Assembly: GCA_032906765.1 (NCBI GenBank)
Contig: JAJTZB010000011.1
Location: forward strand, 1 to 41,233
DNA length: 41,233 nt
Reading direction: 5' to 3'
DNA from: Nitrososphaerales archaeon
Lineage (GTDB): Archaea > Thermoproteota > Nitrososphaeria > Nitrososphaerales > Gagatemarchaeaceae
Of the stretch, positions 2,160-40,917 are shown piece after piece. The number at the start of each line of letters is the position of its first letter. Within the stretch, counting starts at the first letter, position 1. The position numbers and the translations under genes were made by a program. A model generated the notes under the pieces. That model searched no databases. It was given only the letters and a program-made list of their open reading frames with translations, and was not told the DNA's origin.

Positions 2160-3017
2160 TCAGATTCCGAGGGCCTCTCTGAGACCCTTGTACCTGTTCC
2201 TGATCGTGACCTCGGTCACCCCGGCAGCTTCTGCGACGTCTTTCTGCGTCTTCTCTTCGCCTTCCAATGCACAGGCGACGTAGAGAGCCGAAGCCGCCAG
2301 CCCCATCGGGTCCTTGCCGGCTGAGATCCCCATCGCCTTGGCCCTGAGTAGAATCTCGCGCGCCCTTCTTTGCGTTGTCTCAGACATTTGCGCCCTAGAT
2401 GCGATTCCGGATACGCACCTCGTCGCCTCGGCCACCGGCATTTTGAAATCCATCTCCCTGTGCAGGAGCCTATACGACCTTGCGAGGTCCTTGACCTTGA
2501 CATTGCTCACAGCGGCTACGTCCTTCAGGGTCCTTGGGATCTCGCCATCCCTGCAAGCGGCATAGAGCGACGCCGCCATGATAGACGTGATAGACCTCCC
2601 CCTTACCAAGCTCCTCTCGAGGGCCTTCCTGTAGAAGTAAGCCGCCTTTTCCGTGACGGCCTCTGATACCGCAAGTTTGTCCGCGAATCTCCGCAGCTCG
2701 CTGAATGCCTGTCGGAGGTTCCTGTCAGCAGACTCGTGGACCTGGCTCCTCCGGTCCCATGTCCTCAGCCTCTCGACAGTGGACTTCATGGACCCGGATA
2801 GTGACCTGCCGGACGCGTCTTTGTTGAGGCCCCCTATCACCGTGGCCAACCCCATGTCGTGGACGGCAATCGATGTGGGGGTTCCCGTCCTGCTTCGGTC
2901 GCCCTTTTCGTCGCTCGAGAAAGACCTCCATTCTGGACCCATATCCACAATCTTCTCCTTCACCACCAGTCCGCAATCGCTGCAGTAGAGTTCCGACCCC
3001 GAACCATCAATCACCAT
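2160..3017 (-). CDS. tfb: Transcription initiation factor TFB (copy 1)
   Basis: TFB bridges TBP-bound promoter DNA and RNA polymerase. The 285 residues from the first ATG hold half of the zinc ribbon (YCSDCG, about 11-16), the B-finger GPEWRSF, and two cyclin-like repeats (about 95-185 and 190-280) ending in a helix-turn-helix with VTEVTIRNRYKGL. The other zinc CxxC (CPRC) is encoded in frame just upstream, at 3030-3041, and the frame stays open to a stop at 3105-3107. No ATG, GTG or TTG occurs in that extension, so the true start may be non-standard, for example CTG at 3066-3068. The product closely resembles copy 2 at 32039-33001. The family is certain and the start is not. Confidence 0.93.
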   Translation of the reverse strand: MVIDGSGSELYCSDCGLVVKEKIVDMGPEWRSFSSDEKGDRSRTGTPTSIAVHDMGLATVIGGLNKDASGRSLSGSMKSTVERLRTWDRRSQVHESADRNLRQAFSELRRFADKLAVSEAVTEKAAYFYRKALERSLVRGRSITSIMAASLYAACRDGEIPRTLKDVAAVSNVKVKDLARSYRLLHREMDFKMPVAEATRCVSGIASRAQMSETTQRRAREILLRAKAMGISAGKDPMGLAASALYVACALEGEEKTQKDVAEAAGVTEVTIRNRYKGLREALGI

Positions 3018-3114
3018 TCGGCTCTTCCCGCATCTGGGGCATTTGGCCGAACTCCTCTCTAACTTCAGGAGCCGCGAAAAGTTTGTGCTGTTGGATATTT
3101 GTAATCACGAATCA

Positions 3115-18471: not shown

Positions 18472-18937
18472 CTCATCCATGTCGCGAAGCCGCTCGTACC
18501 TCCTGGCGCCCCATGCAATGGATTCGAAGATTGCCCAGATTGCCTACAAGAATGCTTGCAAGTCTTTGGTCGGTTGTGACCAGCAAAGTTGGGTAGAGAA
18601 GGAAAAGGTGTCCTTCGGAAGTTGAGGGAAGTCGCGGGATTCTAGTGGGTTGGCACTTCACTCCGCGTGAATCTGGACTCGAAAAACTAGCCTCAAACCA
18701 GAGATAGAACGTTCGGTGGCAGCCACGAATGTGATGACTTCGTTTGACCACCTTCGTTATCCTTTAGACCAGCCTGCGACGATGATTTCGAGTTGGGTTC
18801 GTAAGGCGCCTTTCGAATGGTGTTTGAACCAACATAGGTGGACTCACATTCCTCTCTGGGCCCTTCATACCATCATCACGCTCGCGCGCTCTTCGTTCGA
18901 AAGCTTTTACTAAGATTCACAGAACTATGCTGGCAGG
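18472..18937. other. Intergenic stretch containing the right end of the element
   Basis: No protein gene is supported. The attR-like 14-mer lies at 18851-18864, about 75 bases before the cyclase-family gene. Confidence 0.5.
18851..18864 (+). repeat. attR-like copy of the tRNA-His 3' end
   Basis: CCTCTCTGGGCCCT is identical to 14237-14250 in tRNA-His and has the same orientation. The rest of the tRNA is absent here, as expected for the fragment displaced by integration. Confidence 0.62.
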
Positions 18938-31879: not shown

Positions 31880-31971
31880 GGGCCGGTAGTTCAGCGGTAC
31901 GAACGCCCGCCTCGCACGCGGGAGAACCCGTTCGGGTCCCAAGGTCGGGGGTTCAATTCCCCCCCGGTCCA
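31880..31971 (+). tRNA. tRNA-Ala (CGC) with an extended variable region, probable intron
   Basis: The acceptor stem GGGCCGG/CCGGTCC contains the G3:U70 pair, the identity element of tRNA-Ala, with A73. The anticodon loop CTCGCAC gives CGC. The T arm is GGGGG/CCCCC. The variable region (31923-31946) has 24 bases where five are expected (AGGTC). The extra 19 bases include an ACCC/GGGT hairpin. This fits a non-canonical intron between positions 44 and 48, as known in Thaumarchaeota. Removing 19 bases gives a normal 73-base tRNA. Confidence 0.9.
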
Positions 31972-33104: not shown

Positions 33105-33599
33105 TTACGTGTTGATAGCTTTCCTGACCAGCTTGGTGCCGCAAACCGGGCACTCGGTGAGCTTCGGGTTCGTGTACTGCTTGCCGCACCCTTTACAGAA
33201 AAGCCTCCAGGTGATGTTCTTCCATTCCCCTCCCTTCAGCGTGGTCTCCGACAATGGGATGGACAGGACCTCGGCCACGTTCCTCACTGCGAAATCATCC
33301 GAGACGAGGTGGACGTTGCCGTCGGTCCTCGAGAGGTCCAGCGCGAGGGCCAGCAGGGACACGTCGGTATCCGAGAGGGCGCCGAAGTCTCCAGTCTTTG
33401 ATGAGATTGACCTGACGCGGCTGACCGACTCTGCCGACGGCTCGGTCACCTGCACCCTGGTATGAATCAGGGAAGAGCCGACGTTGTGGTGCTTGACTTC
33501 CTGCAGGACGAGATACGTGGTGTAGTAGCGGCCGCTGCCCTGGTACGGGATGCCCGCGTAGAAGGCAGTTGAATCGAGGATGTACGCAGGCTCAGACAA
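33105..33599 (-). CDS. nob1: Nob1-like ribosome-maturation endonuclease (PIN domain plus zinc ribbon)
   Basis: Nob1 cleaves the 3' end of small-subunit rRNA during ribosome maturation. The 164-residue protein starts with a PIN domain, with Asp9 in YILDSTAFY, a Glu in VLQEVKHHN, and Asp pairs in LSDTDVSLLALA and VSDDFAVRN. A C-terminal zinc ribbon (CKGCG and CPVCGT) completes the archaeal Nob1 layout. It lies upstream of TFB2 on the same strand. Confidence 0.9.
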   Translation of the reverse strand: MSEPAYILDSTAFYAGIPYQGSGRYYTTYLVLQEVKHHNVGSSLIHTRVQVTEPSAESVSRVRSISSKTGDFGALSDTDVSLLALALDLSRTDGNVHLVSDDFAVRNVAEVLSIPLSETTLKGGEWKNITWRLFCKGCGKQYTNPKLTECPVCGTKLVRKAINT

Positions 33600-33758
33600 G
33601 TTTGTCTTTCCTCAAAGAACAGGGTGGCCCCTCAATCCATGAACCTGGCGGCAGTTTGCCCATCTGCGTGCATCATTTCTTTCGTGGTATTACGGTCGTC
33701 AGACTCAACCTTATTTAGTTGTCTATAACCAAGCGGAGAATGCACTTTTCTTGGCAGA

Positions 33759-34742
33759 CTACGGAATGAGAGTAGTGCGCACCATCGAATTCGTTGCTGT
33801 CTTGACGAAATCTAGGTCGGCCTTCGCCCCATATACGAGTGGTTCGAACTCCGCGACGTTGCCCGAAGTTAAGACCTGATTCATCGATGAAGTGTATTTC
33901 CTATATGCTTCAAGCACGCTCATCTCTCGGCCTTCGTAAAATAGCATCTGCTCATCGGCAGAACGTCCGATCTCCTCCAGCTGTCTTACCATGTCCACGC
34001 TCGGATAATAATACCTGACGTGCTGTCGTCCAAGCTTGCTAACGAAATCCTCTCGTTTAACCTCGAACTTCAAGCACCGCTCGAGAAACCTCTCTCTGTC
34101 AGCGAGCTTGAATTGATCTGAGAGATCGAGCAGAAGACCCAGCCCTTTACTCCGAGAGCTGACGTGGATCAGGCCCTCAATATTGAGTAATCCAACCTGC
34201 GAGTTAATGTTGGCGCATATGGCAAGTCGTCTTTGGTGCAGATAGTTGATTGCGGCATTGGCAGGTGAATATCCTCTTGCCCTGGCCCTCGGAATCGAAA
34301 CAAGCTCGCGAACGAACCTTTCCCTAACTCTGCTCTTGAAGTCCAGATTCGCAATTCTTAGAATTCTCTTGTAGGCTGCCCAATAATGATAATTGGTTCG
34401 CGCTTCGAACGCTAGCAACTGGTCAAGCGTAGAGCGCCCGAGTTGCTTCAACCTGAGATATTCAATCAGTTGTGCTCTGGTCTCTGGATATGAGGTGTGG
34501 GGCCCCGGCAGATCAAGAATTCTCCTCGTCGCGATGATTACGCTCAGCATTAACGACTCCGCCATGGCTTTGGTGAGTTGGCCACCAGCTTTGATCATCT
34601 CTGGCATTCCGGTCTTCAGTCCACCTCGCCGTTCCGTCATCGTCTGTATCCTCCTCTGAGTAGTGGAGACACCCTTTCCTCCCAGCAATCGCACTTGGTG
34701 GGCCGAGAGACCGTAAGGCAGGCGCTGGGGCGCTTCCATCAT
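33759..34742 (-). CDS. cas1: Stand-alone Cas1-family integrase with reduced N-terminus
   Basis: Cas1-family proteins insert DNA in CRISPR adaptation and, as casposases, mobilise casposons. The 327-residue protein carries the Cas1 alpha-domain pattern: Glu113 in LLAFEARTNYHYW (Cas1 GIEG..Y site), SPANAAINYLH (Cas1 DPxNAxLNY), His193 in EGLIH (Cas1 GFxH), and Asp206/Asp209 in LLLDLSDQF. The spacing from His to Asp matches known Cas1. The usual N-terminal beta-sandwich has no room: only about 50 residues precede the helical domain, and they look like a basic helix-turn-helix. ATG 34742 follows a TATA box, giving a leaderless start. No cas2, other cas gene, CRISPR array or polymerase is nearby. 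Confidence 0.78.
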   Translation of the reverse strand: MMEAPQRLPYGLSAHQVRLLGGKGVSTTQRRIQTMTERRGGLKTGMPEMIKAGGQLTKAMAESLMLSVIIATRRILDLPGPHTSYPETRAQLIEYLRLKQLGRSTLDQLLAFEARTNYHYWAAYKRILRIANLDFKSRVRERFVRELVSIPRARARGYSPANAAINYLHQRRLAICANINSQVGLLNIEGLIHVSSRSKGLGLLLDLSDQFKLADRERFLERCLKFEVKREDFVSKLGRQHVRYYYPSVDMVRQLEEIGRSADEQMLFYEGREMSVLEAYRKYTSSMNQVLTSGNVAEFEPLVYGAKADLDFVKTATNSMVRTTLIP

Positions 34743-34766
34743 TTGGCATACATAAACGGGAGGCAA

Positions 34767-34775
34767 GTTATAGTT
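34767..34775 (-). promoter_or_regulatory. TATA box of the Cas1-family gene
   Basis: On the minus strand it reads AACTATAAC, with a predicted start at about 34745. It lies just before the 3' end of the Sm-like gene, so the two genes may have separate transcripts. Confidence 0.5.
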
Positions 34776-34778
34776 TCG

Positions 34779-35108
34779 TCAAGAATTCATTGTGGCGAAA
34801 AATTCCTTTCGACCCATTTTCTTTCTCTTCCATTCGTATAATAGCCTGGGTTCTCCAGCCTCTCGAACCGCCATTCTCCTTATCTCTTGGTAGTGCAGAT
34901 CAACCATATCGGTTTCGAATCCCAAAGCCCTAACAGGAATCCACTTCTTGCGCTTGGGCTTGAATCGCACCGCATCCCACAGGACTATGACCCCCAGCTC
35001 ATAGTCGTCAATCCTTCCGCAAAACTTCTTTCCACGTTTAGTTTCGATAAAAACTGTCTTGCTTACGTAGTCATTAATTCGGGCAGGCCACTTCGTCTTA
35101 CCTTGCAC
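34779..35108 (-). CDS. Small protein with Sm/LSm-like pattern
   Basis: A 109-residue protein started at GTG 35108, about 27 bp after a TATA box. Residues about 12-70 follow the Sm fold series: VFIETKRGKKFCGRIDDYELGVIVLWDAV, read as strands around a conserved Gly and Asp, followed by a basic segment and a strand FETDMVDLHY. LSm proteins bind RNA. The C-terminal 30 residues are very basic. It is directly upstream of the Cas1-family gene, so a nucleic-acid-binding accessory role is possible. The fold call is tentative. Confidence 0.55.
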   Translation of the reverse strand: MQGKTKWPARINDYVSKTVFIETKRGKKFCGRIDDYELGVIVLWDAVRFKPKRKKWIPVRALGFETDMVDLHYQEIRRMAVREAGEPRLLYEWKRKKMGRKEFFATMNS

Positions 35109-35130
35109 GTTGACGCAGAACCAAGTCCTT

Positions 35131-35139
35131 GCTATAAGG
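35131..35139 (-). promoter_or_regulatory. TATA box of the Sm-like gene
   Basis: GCTATAAGG (plus-strand reading) is centred about 27 bp before GTG 35108. Confidence 0.45.
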
Positions 35140-35239
35140 AAGACATGGACCGCGATAGTTTCACAAGGGCGTCTCCCTCTTCGCCAACCGCCGCAAGCAG
35201 GCACCACTGGTTAAATCTCGGTTCCCGATCCGAATCGCT

Positions 35240-35632
35240 GTGCCCGAGAGGCCCCTGATCCGCAACCTTTCCATCGAGATGGTCGAGATTCCTCGAATGG
35301 AATTCACCAGCGTCTGGGTTGACGACGAGCACGTCCTGATCGAGCTCTGGGCGAAGGACGACGGGCAGCGCGAACTCCTCGGGAGGGTCGCGAAAAACAG
35401 GAAGGAAGGCGAACAGTTGCTGGTGGAGCTGGACGGCAGGGCGCTGCTCAGGAGGATTCGGACGATCAGTCTCAGGCCGGGCTTCCAGGAGAGGGACAAG
35501 CTGGTCTTGACGATCATTCTCGGGCCAGTCTTGTCAGAGCCGCAATGTAATGAGACTCGTCTGATTCAATCTCGTTTCCTCCTCCGCCGGGCTCCTTTCC
35601 GTTCCCGCTTTCCTCTTTTCTTACCTGCATGA
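35240..35632 (+). CDS. Unknown protein, host-like body with a possibly foreign C-terminus
   Basis: A 130-residue frame beginning with GTG 35240, behind a TATA-like GGTTAAATC (35209-35217). Residues 1-100 use GC-rich codons like the surrounding chromosome and show regular strands (VWVDDEHVLIELW, LVLTIILGPV). After about residue 100 the bases change to an AT-richer, low-complexity Arg/Phe stretch that overlaps the convergent gene. The C-terminus may have been replaced by inserted DNA. No family is recognised. Confidence 0.5.
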   Translation: MPERPLIRNLSIEMVEIPRMEFTSVWVDDEHVLIELWAKDDGQRELLGRVAKNRKEGEQLLVELDGRALLRRIRTISLRPGFQERDKLVLTIILGPVLSEPQCNETRLIQSRFLLRRAPFRSRFPLFLPA

Positions 35633-36054
35633 TACGTGCGATCTGGGAGCTTCTCAAAACTCTCTAGGAGTTCCTTCTCATACTCCTGGGCTTCCTTTTC
35701 CTCCTCTTCGGTCATTGGGTGCTTCCATGGCATTTCTGACAACTTCCGTTGCTGTTCCACTAGTCTTCTCGCCTTCAGGGTATCAGTGAAAGACAGCTCG
35801 AAGTCATGAGAATTGTCGAACGAGCAGTAGTACTTCACGATTATCTTCCCTGGAACTATCCTTCCATTGCTCATCTTGAGGAATGCAGGTGAATCGCAGT
35901 ATGGACAACTCGGACTTGGCGCGCCTTCGCTTGGCGAACTCTTGAAATCCTTGACGAGCCAATCCCCGTCTTCAATCCTCATGTCTGTGACGTATGGTTG
36001 ACCTCGGTGTATTTGTAAGTAGCTCCTTTGGGTTCTGTTAGGTTGTCGGGCCAT
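35566..36054 (-). CDS. Unknown zinc-ribbon-like protein
   Basis: A 162-residue protein started at ATG 36054. It has a CPYC pair and a later YYCSF near a His (SFDNSHDF), suggesting a partial zinc ribbon in the middle (about 45-85). A long acidic helix follows, and the end is a cluster of Lys/Arg (KKRGKRERKGARRRRKR) that may bind nucleic acid. Earlier in-frame starts reach 36141. No family is recognised. It is in the same patch as the Cas1-family gene. Confidence 0.55.
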   Translation of the reverse strand: MARQPNRTQRSYLQIHRGQPYVTDMRIEDGDWLVKDFKSSPSEGAPSPSCPYCDSPAFLKMSNGRIVPGKIIVKYYCSFDNSHDFELSFTDTLKARRLVEQQRKLSEMPWKHPMTEEEEKEAQEYEKELLESFEKLPDRTYHAGKKRGKRERKGARRRRKRD

Positions 36055-36352
36055 GATGGAGAAACATCGGACATGGATTCCCCGAAGAGTAACAGTGCCC
36101 GGTGGCATGTGCCAGAAATTCCCAAACGAGTACCAGGCCAAACTAGCACCGAAAACGGGGGTTAATGTGCCAGAAGAGGGGGGATCACGTTCGCCACGTG
36201 TTGGCCGCAGTCCTCCTTTCGTGTGAGCAAGCGAAACCGCCTTTTCTGTTGTCCCGTATCTATGACGAGTTCATGAACTGGCGAATAGGCGTTCGACAGT
36301 TTCGCAATAGGCAGCTGCCTGGGTGCAAGTTTCGACAAATCTCACTAACACA

Positions 36353-36387
36353 AAGGTAGCGAGGGGTCGAATCCCTCCGGGCCCGCA
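36353..36387 (+). pseudogene. 3' fragment of a tRNA gene
   Basis: A perfect T arm (GAGGG, loop GTCGAAT, CCCTC) is followed by acceptor strand CGGGCCC and discriminator G. The matching 5' strand GGGCCCG is absent upstream, so only the 3' half remains. Such fragments mark integration or excision sites. Confidence 0.7.
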
Positions 36388-36679
36388 CTTGGTCTCTCCT
36401 TGCCGATGATTTACCAGTAAATCGAGGCTGAAATTCCACCCAACATGCTAGGTCGGAGTCCTGCCCCCGCGTTATGACTTGGCATCTAGCCAGAGAATGG
36501 GCTCGGACTGTCATCAACTTCTTCAACTTCGTCTGACTTAACACGAGTGTTACACAGGTCGCAAAATATCGAGTCGCCATTGATTGTAATGAGTTGTGAC
36601 TTGCAGACCTTATGTACCAGCAACGCTAATCCTCTTTGCTTACTTGTCTGAAGAATTCCAAGCGATAAACTTTGATACG

Positions 36680-36713
36680 CGTCAACCCGGTTCTGTTACG
36701 TTACCGGTTGACG
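36680..36713. repeat. Imperfect inverted repeat
   Basis: CGTCAACCCGGT and ACCGGTTGACG pair with one extra base, around an 11-base centre. It ends eight bases before the tRNA scar at 36721, so it may be part of a recombination site. Confidence 0.5.
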
Positions 36714-36720
36714 ACGAATG

Positions 36721-36739
36721 AAATCCGACCCGCGGCATC
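36721..36739 (+). repeat. 19-bp tRNA 3'-end scar, copy 2 (att-like)
   Basis: Identical and in the same orientation as 429-447, with different flanks on both sides. It contains the T-stem 3' strand, acceptor strand and discriminator of a tRNA, without the 5' half. Confidence 0.6.
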
Positions 36740-36755
36740 CTTTTTGTCCTGCGAG

Positions 36756-37532
36756 TCATTTCAGGAGGTCGGAGTAGATTTCCGGGCGTCTGGCGCGCAG
36801 CCTTTCCTCCCTATGACGCCTGATTGTTGCTAGGTCAAGGTTGGCCACTAGGATTTGGGATCGAGGACCGGAGCTGGCGAGTACCTTTGGATACACTATC
36901 CTGTCCTTCTCTCCGACCGTGAATCCAACGATCAGGCTCCCTCCCTGAAACTTAGGAGCTTGTAGGACGTTGGGGCTGACAACCGGGACTCTGTTCTCGA
37001 GTGCCCTCACCTTGACATACAGTTTCCAGGGCTTCAAGCCGGCGGAGGATATCCTGGCCGGGGCGAAGAGTACTTCGGTTCCATTTAGGGCAAGAATCCT
37101 GGAGACCTCAGGGTAAACCAAGTCATGACAGATGGTGATTCCTACCTTCACTCCACTCGCGTCGAAGGTGAAAAGCGCGTTCCCCGGGATTGCCCTCCTC
37201 TTCTCTCTGCCGAAAAGGTGAGTCTTCTGCTGTCTTCCGACCTCTCCTTTCGGCCCAAGCAAGACGCTCTCTACCATGGTTGCGCTCTCTCTCCTCGTGA
37301 ATTCCCCGCCAGAGATGATGTACGCCCCTGTATCTGTCGCTATCTGAGCGAGCGCCTCGACCACCTTCTCGATGTTGTTGATGGCATCGGGAACCCAGTG
37401 CTCAGGCAAACAGATGACCTCTGCCTTGTCGGCGGCTTGTCGCGTCATCCGTAATGCCCGTCTCACAACTTCTGACTTCGACCCGCTGCAGTCGAGCTGG
37501 ACCGCAGCTACTCGCAAACGGCCGCCTTTCAC
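36756..37532 (-). CDS. Carbon-nitrogen hydrolase (nitrilase superfamily)
   Basis: Nitrilase-superfamily amidases hydrolyse C-N bonds through a Glu-Lys-Cys triad. The 258-residue protein has Glu44 (CLPEHW), Lys103 (QQKTHLFG) and Cys135 (ITICHDLVYPE). The length fits the omega-amidase/NIT branch. Its start overlaps the coaBC stop by four bases (ATGA), so the two are translationally coupled. The substrate is unknown. Confidence 0.9.
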   Translation of the reverse strand: MKGGRLRVAAVQLDCSGSKSEVVRRALRMTRQAADKAEVICLPEHWVPDAINNIEKVVEALAQIATDTGAYIISGGEFTRRESATMVESVLLGPKGEVGRQQKTHLFGREKRRAIPGNALFTFDASGVKVGITICHDLVYPEVSRILALNGTEVLFAPARISSAGLKPWKLYVKVRALENRVPVVSPNVLQAPKFQGGSLIVGFTVGEKDRIVYPKVLASSGPRSQILVANLDLATIRRHREERLRARRPEIYSDLLK

Positions 37533-38773
37533 TCGCTGCGGAGCTCCCTAACTGCCAGGCTGAGAATGCCGTCTGCAATCCTCCTCTTCGGAGCTCTGGA
37601 GAGGTGCGTTGTCTCGCCCCCTGACGAGACCACGGTCACTTCGTTCTCATCCGCTCCAAAGCCAATCCCCTCCCTGCCGACGTCGTTCACCACGACCATG
37701 TCAGCGCCCGATTCTCTGAGTCTCTGCCTTGCCCTACCAAGCAGCTCGGCCCTGGGAAGGTTATGCTCCGCCTTGAATATCACCAAGAAGGTCGAAGGAC
37801 TCACTCTCTTCGCTTGGTCGATTATCTTGGGTGTCCTGGCCAGTTCCAGCGTGAGCGTTTGGCTCTTCGAAGATTCTATCTTGGTGTTGAGGATTTTGAC
37901 CGGCCTGTAGTCTGATACGGCGGCCGCGGCCAGCATCAAGTGGTACTTTGAATGCGACAGTTGCGAGATGACCTGCTTGTACATTTGTTCGGCTGTATTC
38001 ACTGCGAGCACCTTCACCCCAATCGGAGGTTCGGCAGAGCCAGGACCGTAGACAAGCGTGACACTCGCCCCTCTCCTCTCCGCCGCAGACGCCAGGGCGA
38101 CCGCCATCTTCCCCGAACTCCTGTTCGTCAGGACTCTGACCGGGTCGATCTGCTCGGCAGTCGGCCCACCGGTTATCAGAACCTTCATGCTGCGCATATC
38201 TTTGTTCGAAACAGTTAGTATCAATGAGGAAAGTATTTCCTCGACACTTGCGAGTTTCGCCTTCCCTTCATCGATTGTCGGAGGGATGATGACTACGCCC
38301 ACCCTCTCGAGCTTCTTGAGGTTCTCCTGTATGATGGGGTGACGCATCATTGTGTCGTGCATCGCTGGCGCAATCAGGATTGGAATCCCGGCCCCAAGGG
38401 CAGAGGAGACGTACGACGTGACCGGGGAGTCGTCGATTCCTGCGGCGATCTTCCCTATCGTGTTCGCAGTCGCGGGCGCAATCAGGATAGCGTCAGCCTT
38501 CCCAGCGCCGGTAGTGTGCACGACATGCTCTATCTTGCCAGTGAGTTCAGTTACTACGGGGTTTCCCGTTGCCCACTCCATCAAGTCTGGATGAATTATC
38601 TTCTGGGCGGCCGCGGTCATGACCGCGTGTACGTCTGCGCCATGCCTCATCAGACTCCGGGCTATGTCTGGCGCGAGGTAGGCCGACACGCTCCCCGTGA
38701 TTCCCAGGATGATTTTCTTCCCCCTGAGCTCCTCCCCTTCAGTTCCGATTATTTCCTTGGAAGGGTGTTCCAT
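37529..38773 (-). CDS. coaBC: CoaBC: phosphopantothenoylcysteine decarboxylase / phosphopantothenate-cysteine ligase
   Basis: A bifunctional enzyme of coenzyme A synthesis. The 414-residue protein has an N-terminal flavoprotein domain (GITGSVSAY, VVHTTGAGKADAILIAPATANT split as about residues 100-125, PAMHDTMM) and a C-terminal ligase domain from about 195 (ITGGPTAEQIDPVR, NRSSGKM, AAVSDYRP). ATG 38773 is preferred because a TATA-like ATAAATC lies about 30 bp upstream; earlier ATGs precede it. It is followed, with overlap, by the nitrilase gene. Confidence 0.94.
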   Translation of the reverse strand: MEHPSKEIIGTEGEELRGKKIILGITGSVSAYLAPDIARSLMRHGADVHAVMTAAAQKIIHPDLMEWATGNPVVTELTGKIEHVVHTTGAGKADAILIAPATANTIGKIAAGIDDSPVTSYVSSALGAGIPILIAPAMHDTMMRHPIIQENLKKLERVGVVIIPPTIDEGKAKLASVEEILSSLILTVSNKDMRSMKVLITGGPTAEQIDPVRVLTNRSSGKMAVALASAAERRGASVTLVYGPGSAEPPIGVKVLAVNTAEQMYKQVISQLSHSKYHLMLAAAAVSDYRPVKILNTKIESSKSQTLTLELARTPKIIDQAKRVSPSTFLVIFKAEHNLPRAELLGRARQRLRESGADMVVVNDVGREGIGFGADENEVTVVSSGGETTHLSRAPKRRIADGILSLAVRELRSE

Positions 38774-39171
38774 GAACCGCCTCGTACCGGCTTGTGTTCG
38801 ATTTATCATTATGGACTGGGGATGCGGCAGCCGCCGCCGGTTCACCGTTTGTCAAGGGTATTCGCCCTCACGGATGATATGCTTCGGGTGTCCGTTTGTC
38901 CCTGACGGGTTAATCTCGGATCCTGAAGACTGTGTTTTCGACCATGCTTCGGGTACGCCGGTGCTCTTTCGGTCGCAGCAGAACTCATCGCTCAGCCTTG
39001 AAGCTCGAATCCAACGCGTGGCGCGCCTGACACTACGATAAGCCAGATCTCTTGGTTTTCGAGAGTCAAGTGGGGCGATTATCAGTCTAGCTGTAATCTT
39101 CCCCCGACGGATCTGCTATCTTCGCCGTGATATTTCATGCAGTGGAGTTCGTTGGGGCAATCCTCTCGGCC
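38774..39171. other. Intergenic stretch without a recognisable gene
   Basis: Apart from the coaBC promoter near 38800-38815, I see no gene, tRNA or strong repeat. Short frames here have no coding character. Confidence 0.45.
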
Positions 39172-40376: not shown

Positions 40377-40409
40377 CCTTATATCCTCATATTAACATGG
40401 TATTAATAT
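40377..40409 (+). promoter_or_regulatory. Promoter and palindromic operator of the toxin-antitoxin genes
   Basis: The TATA box CCTTATATCC (40377-40386) is about 26 bp before ATG 40408, predicting a leaderless transcript. ATATTAA (40389-40395) and TTAATAT (40403-40409) form an inverted repeat covering the start site, as expected for antitoxin autorepression. Confidence 0.6.
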
Positions 40410-40650
40410 GGTCAAGGCGATCGTCGAGATAGACAAGCAAGCAAACAAAGTAATCAACGTCGTCAAGGCTCAGTACGGTTTGAAGGACAAGTCACAGGCA
40501 ATTAACGAGATGGCAAAACAGTATAGGGAGCTGGTGCTTGAATCTGGAGTCAGACCAGAGTACCTTAGGAAGTTGAAGAGGATCCGGGAGGAACCGATAA
40601 TCAGAGTTGGAAGCATCAGCGACTTCAAGAAAAGATACGGTCAGAAATGA
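40408..40650 (+). CDS. Antitoxin of a RelE-type system (DUF2683-like)
   Basis: An 80-residue protein starting VKAIVEIDKQANKVINVVKAQ, the strand-helix layout of a ribbon-helix-helix DNA-binding domain. A charged C-terminal half ending FKKRYGQK would wrap the toxin. Its stop codon is directly followed by the ATG of the toxin. The palindrome over its start supports autoregulation. It resembles archaeal DUF2683 antitoxins. Confidence 0.78.
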   Translation: MVKAIVEIDKQANKVINVVKAQYGLKDKSQAINEMAKQYRELVLESGVRPEYLRKLKRIREEPIIRVGSISDFKKRYGQK

Positions 40651-40917
40651 ATGTATGAACTGGAAACCAGGGAGCACGTTGATAGAGCCTTCAGGAAGCT
40701 GGCTAGAAAGAATCCAAATCAGATGGAAGTCATAACCAAGAAGATTCAAGAGGTTCTGGAAGATCCGCGCAGGTTCAAGCCAATGCATTTCCCACTGGCG
40801 GGTATGCGGAGGGTTCACTTCGGCAACTTCGTCCTCCTATTTTCGATTGACGAGCAGAGAAGGACCGTTATCCTCGAAGACTATGAGCATCACGACAAGA
40901 TTTACAGGAAGAAGTGA
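40651..40917 (+). CDS. RelE/ParE-superfamily toxin
   Basis: RelE toxins cut mRNA at the ribosome. The 88-residue protein has the family layout: two N-terminal helices (VDRAFRKLARKNP, ITKKIQEVLEDP), then strands with MRRVHFGNFVLLFSID and TVILEDYEHHDKIY, ending KIYRKK. Basic and aromatic residues near the C-terminus match catalytic positions in related toxins. It abuts the antitoxin stop codon with no gap. It appears complete. Confidence 0.82.
   Translation: MYELETREHVDRAFRKLARKNPNQMEVITKKIQEVLEDPRRFKPMHFPLAGMRRVHFGNFVLLFSIDEQRRTVILEDYEHHDKIYRKK

Follow-up and report, generated by a model that had tools for sequence, protein, structure and literature searches.

A Cas1-family gene without the N-terminal beta domain in a stretch of foreign composition in a Nitrososphaerales archaeon

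Cas1 serves as the integrase in CRISPR memory, and transposases are regarded as its likely ancestors. Casposases act at tRNA 3′ ends, and a CGCA motif has been reported at the targets of the M. mazei casposon at a tRNA 3′ end (PMC6977970); a family 5, consisting of hot-spring casposases, has been proposed in PMC9755687. In Cas1-solo group 1 of Methanomicrobiales, cas1 lies outside CRISPR loci, and the group is described in PMC4046053 as being without the full catalytic set. The locus analyzed here lies in a window of 41,233 nucleotides, which is the whole of contig C11 of a 1.77-Mb draft genome (13 contigs; G000 in our numbering of genomes) of a Nitrososphaerales archaeon. We take this organism to belong to group 1.1c. 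No paper was found in the literature searched on Cas1 in group 1.1c Thaumarchaeota, on archaeal zinc-ribbon Cas1 fusions, or on Cas1 together with Sm-like/LSm proteins.

The short Cas1 protein and its described counterparts

The features of the locus are listed in Table 1. The frame 33759–34766 on the minus strand matched PF01867 with 30.6 bits, above the cut-off of 22.3, and TIGR00287 with 29.6 bits, under the cut-off of 71.7. The best sequence match of the protein was A. fulgidus Cas1 (E 0.0008). Translation probably starts at the ATG at 34742, which follows a TATA-like element at 34774–34765 by about 30 bp. Residues E121, H201, D214, and D217 are kept and were invariant with the long relatives described below in an alignment of the Cas1 domains of three of them. 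These residues align with the catalytic residues of A. fulgidus Cas1, and their E. coli equivalents are E141, H208, D218, and D221, as given by PMC4046053 together with the A. fulgidus alignment.

Table 1. Positions of the features discussed, numbered along the window except for the long Cas1 fusion, which is given by its locus
Feature	Position	Strand	Remarks
NOB1-like PIN/zinc-ribbon gene	33105..33599	-	native left flank; PIN_6 57 bits
TATA-like core of NOB1 promoter	33711..33720	-	native sequence extends at least this far
Short Cas1-family protein, ~327 aa	33759..34742	-	open frame to 34766; catalytic residues kept, N-terminal beta domain missing
Small Sm-like basic protein, ~109 aa	34779..35108	-	open frame to 35207; sub-threshold Sm/LSm matches
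GC-rich gene, 130 aa	35240..35632	+	native-like codon composition; no known family
Zinc-ribbon-like protein, Lys/Arg-rich tail	35566..36054	-	open frame to 36141; motif by eye
tRNA 3′-end fragment (tRNA-Ile or tRNA-Arg type)	36360..36386	+	possible attachment-site scar
Carbon-nitrogen hydrolase and coaBC-like genes	36756..38845	-	right flank, uncertain origin
Long Cas1 fusion, 830 aa	L003:8246-10735		GC3 0.776, native composition

The AlphaFold2 model of the short Cas1 (mean pLDDT 68.7, with residues 1–54 unreliable) matched A. fulgidus Cas1 (PDB 4N06) with a Z score of 19.5 and an rmsd of 3.4 over 239 residues, and the M. mazei casposase (PDB 6OPM) with a Z score of 18.2 and an rmsd of 3.7 over 241 residues. 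Model residues 47–313 corresponded to chain residues 90–344 of 4N06. Because the matched chain residues start at 90 in 4N06 and at 100 in 6OPM, the N-terminal beta domain is absent from the short Cas1. Both the family match and the fold match bore out the Cas1 assignment made in the initial annotation of this DNA.

CRISPR Cas1 of A. fulgidus is the closest counterpart in both sequence and fold; unlike it, the short Cas1 is missing the beta domain, has no adjoining cas2 (the adjoining genes are NOB1 and the Sm-like gene), and no CRISPR array was found in the window. The M. mazei casposase shares with it the Cas1 fold, the intact catalytic residues, and possibly the tRNA 3′ end as a target, but differs in having the beta domain. 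Unlike the casposon of M. mazei, the patch has no PolB (none among the scanned genes of 33.6–41.2 kb, nor any unassigned frame of such size), no recognized C-terminal HTH, and no clear terminal repeats. With Cas1-solo group 1 it shares the location outside CRISPR loci, but its catalytic set is complete. By gene content, the patch is neither a described casposon nor a CRISPR adaptation module nor Cas1-solo group 1. No Cas1 homologue was found in viral contigs, searched with two Cas1 alignments, or in plasmids or phages. The short Cas1 is best explained as a member of a small archaeal clade that would belong neither to CRISPR-Cas nor, by gene content, to the described casposons.

Composition, boundaries, and other genes of the patch

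The GC content of 33601–36700 was 0.512, the minimum among 382 sliding windows of 3.1 kb, overlapping ones included, in agreement with the AT-richness that had been noticed at the outset. The GC3 values were 0.584 for Cas1, 0.532 for the Sm-like gene, and 0.552 for the zinc-ribbon gene, and those of the neighboring core genes were 0.823 (NOB1), 0.806 (TFB), and 0.783 (phosphoribosyltransferase gene). The GC-rich gene previously pointed out at 35240 indeed showed a GC content of 0.587, a GC3 of 0.746, and an ordinary codon-position pattern; it had no match in the loci with which it was compared. The window also contains a second TFB-like gene at 2163–3104 (-), with about 58% identity to the TFB genes of relatives.

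NOB1 was present in 34 of 41 genomes, namely this genome and 40 relatives, and NOB1 and IF5A were divergent neighbors in 12 of 14 family genomes, with a gap of 98–362 bp. IF5A was not found in the window, in which the contig ends 7.6 kb past NOB1. The NOB1 promoter core has 17 of 18 bases in common with that of one relative (G002), and a pattern search located it in 6 of the 14 relatives. Since this core is retained to 33720 and the Cas1 stop is at 33759, the left junction lies between these two positions. In the two remaining family genomes, the NOB1-IF5A spacer holds unrelated inserts of 2.1 kb (G006, L086:8246-10323) and 4.2 kb (G022, L095:5956-10170), so this spacer looks insertion-prone. 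On the right, 36.76–41.2 kb is mildly atypical too (GC3 0.63–0.69), and the right limit of the patch is thus not fixed; the coaBC-like gene there showed up to 52% identity to some other families versus at most 47% to its own. Near the contig end, at 40408–40917 (+), DUF2683 and ParE-type genes likely form a toxin-antitoxin pair. The patch genes were never found together in the 40 relatives, a negative outcome for the conserved co-occurrence that the initial annotation had proposed as a check, and the patch was not found in a second copy. The results support an insertion with a foreign composition.

The small basic protein gave an LSM match of 12 bits (E 0.17), below the curated cut-off of 23.4, as well as matches to an archaeal snRNP model (E 0.17) and to a solved SmG chain (E 1.4). 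All of these sub-threshold matches fall consistently on residues 43–88, and the Sm identity first suggested for this protein is plausible only. Its start was set from a TATA-like element at 35138–35131 and is likewise putative. The Sm-like and Cas1 frames lie about 37 bp apart on the same strand. The zinc ribbon and basic tail described earlier are visible in the translation of the other small protein (CPYC ... CSFDNSH and a K/R-rich end), which had no Pfam or other family match. Neither of the two small proteins had a match in viral contigs or in the homologous loci L018–L021 and L155, and a profile comparison for either as a piece of the long Cas1 fusion yielded nothing. In the 41 genomes, the two genes matched only themselves. 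Because they are without detectable homologues in the 40 relatives despite the presence of a Cas1 relative in five of these, the earlier proposal that they are accessories assisting Cas1 is unsupported; nor does either resemble any part of the long fusion.

Positions 36362–36386 agreed with the 3′ end of tRNA-Ile(GAT) at 24 of 25 bases and with that of tRNA-Arg(GCG) at 23 of 25, and the best of 200 shuffles reached 19 of 25. This comparison used 27 tRNAs from 38 matches, one of 28 having been dropped as unusable. The fragment spans 25–27 nt; the intact tRNAs sit on other contigs, and none is beside it. Only one of the two tRNA 3′ fragments initially reported could be retained, since no second one in the patch reached 19/25. 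The tRNA-Ala at 31880 was rejected as the parent, because, of the 27 tRNAs, none but Ile(GAT) and two for Arg reached at least 19/25 at 36362. The next best match in the window outside tRNA genes lies at 18839–18863 (+) and shares 20 of 25 bases with the 3′ end of tRNA-His, a single base more than the best shuffle obtained for the patch. A CGCA motif is present at 36384–36387; it is weak evidence because CGCA is common at tRNA ends. With the right end of the patch not fixed, the best long-range inverted arms within 33.0–37.0 kb were 23 nt at 74%, which is unconvincing, as had been judged by eye. As regards a target-site duplication, a single tRNA 3′ fragment was seen, with no partner.

The long Cas1 fusion and other relatives

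The genome has two PF01867 genes, both divergent, and no ordinary Cas1. By eye, the long fusion consists of an N-terminal region of no known family, a possible winged helix, a four-Cys cluster, and a zinc ribbon, followed by Cas1; Pfam matches around the zinc ribbon were sub-threshold only, and its predicted structure was set aside (mean pLDDT 44.9). The long fusions of this genome, G001, and G015 are the nearest kin of the short Cas1 in the family, with 33–40% identity over the Cas1 domain, but differ from it in their native composition and in the extra N-terminal region, four-Cys cluster, and zinc ribbon ahead of Cas1. That the short Cas1 arose from the long form by mere truncation was rejected, because its N-terminus is its own and it shares a C-terminal stretch with a homologue in G592.

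Cas1 relatives were present in 6 of the 41 genomes (the other five being G001, G011, G013, G015, and G017). Among 400 genomes from the order, 7 had one, and all of these fall within one family. Complete long genes, of 830–897 aa, were found in this genome, G001, and G015, and have Cys motifs in common. The long gene is broken in G011 and G017, and in G013 it is cut by contig ends, with its N-terminal part missing. Among named loci, the nearest Cas1 relatives come from the Thaumarchaeota MAGs TA_8, AcS4-109, and palsa_1368, and from the MAG clean1925, which is filed as 'bacterium' and has a 572-aa form; clean1925 is probably genome G120, which has a frame of equal length.

In G001, G013, G015, and G017, the long Cas1 gene is flanked on one side by a divergent frame of no known function and an L10e gene, and on the other side, at a distance of 1.2 to 7 kb, by a methylase gene (on a second contig in G013). 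In G003 and G005, the methylase and L10e genes are adjacent without the long Cas1. No convincing repeats were found around the long Cas1 gene on contig C6. The divergent frame (L012:13677-14825, L013:10865-11707, L016:888-2159) contains, by eye, a GLIQGEG-type motif twice, which we take to be of the kind seen in the LAGLIDADG family; a homing endonuclease had no Pfam or PDB support and was rejected.

In the phylum search, 5 of 398 genomes matched: this genome, G592 (64 bits), and three weak matches. Two of the latter, G584 and G471, look like CRISPR Cas1, since Cas4- and Cas2-like frames adjoin by eye; the third was G583 (E 1.5e-4). The G592 protein, encoded at a contig end (L155:9419-10183, -) in another class of the phylum, is a distant short Cas1-like protein. 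The short Cas1 grouped with it at 86/87, a grouping that is weak because the G592 row has a very long branch. Around G592, no further short forms were found beyond G592 itself in 9 and in 40 genomes.

Origin of the patch

Foreign composition, the broken NOB1-IF5A pairing, the tRNA 3′ scar, and the intact catalytic residues and fold were all observed. Together with the lack of an ordinary Cas1 in the genome, the NOB1 promoter core kept to 33720, the CGCA at the tRNA fragment, and the native GC3 of the long Cas1, they count for the reading that about 33.72–36.39 kb represents what is left of an integrated element gained by horizontal transfer, whose Cas1 is presumed to have inserted it at a tRNA-like 3′ end. 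We hold this reading tentatively, at a probability of about 45%. The element would sit between NOB1 and its usual divergent neighbor IF5A. The short Cas1, which comprises the helical catalytic core but not the beta domain, would be or have been the strand transferase that inserted it, by a casposase-type reaction at the tRNA-like 3′ end. The Sm-like and zinc-ribbon proteins would be cargo or putative DNA-binding helpers, and the same Cas1 clade would also have a long resident fused form of native composition, here and in a few relatives. Counted against this reading are the lack of terminal inverted repeats, a second tRNA fragment, and a target duplication; the lack of an intact tRNA beside the fragment; the native-composition gene inside the patch; the open right boundary; and the lack of a second patch copy and of a close viral, plasmid, or phage homologue. 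The small mobile module envisaged in the initial annotation agrees with the foreign insertion, the tRNA scar, and the catalytic Cas1, but present mobility was not shown, because no terminal repeats, duplicated target site, or second patch copy was found.

The tRNA fragment could alternatively be the attachment site of an island inserted by another enzyme, such as a lost tyrosine recombinase, with Cas1 as cargo. As reported in PMC6563490, tRNA genes are the predominant sites of thaumarchaeal integrated elements (39 of the 68 elements with defined sites), and the att sites are mostly <26 bp, which is comparable to the length of the fragment here, and the absence of Cas1-type terminal repeats also fits. 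However, Cas1 is the sole integrase-type protein and no recombinase was present among the annotated frames scanned in 33.6–41.2 kb, and we regard insertion by another enzyme as unlikely. The native composition of the long form, its similar neighborhood in four genomes, and the Cys motifs common to the complete genes of three would instead suit a Cas1 clade domesticated by its hosts for genome maintenance, of which the short gene would be a locally moved or transferred member with unrelated neighbors. We consider this unlikely, given a clade seen in only 7 of the 400 genomes from the order, a long gene broken in two of them, and the foreign composition of the short form.

A further reading, in which the patch is either a contig mis-join or a mosaic that collected unrelated genes in an insertion-prone spacer, with no joint function of the cluster, appears quite unlikely: the left junction retains the NOB1 promoter core and the Sm-like and Cas1 frames are closely spaced on one strand, although the unrelated inserts in the same spacer of G006 and G022, the affinity of coaBC to other families, and the 13-contig draft state of the assembly speak for it. 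Returning to the remnant of an acquired element, an extended form of the proposal, in which Cas1 cores without the N-terminal domain on other scaffolds (Sm-like for the short mobile form, a fused Cys-rich/zinc-ribbon module for the long resident form) would insert at tRNA 3′ ends as a third kind of Cas1 integration, is in our view distinctly improbable.

A Cas1 core with its catalytic set intact, standing outside both CRISPR and casposons and present in one genome as a foreign short form beside a resident long fusion, would permit a direct test of the need for the Cas1 N-terminal domain and Cas2, as well as of the ways in which Cas1 passes between mobile elements and hosts.
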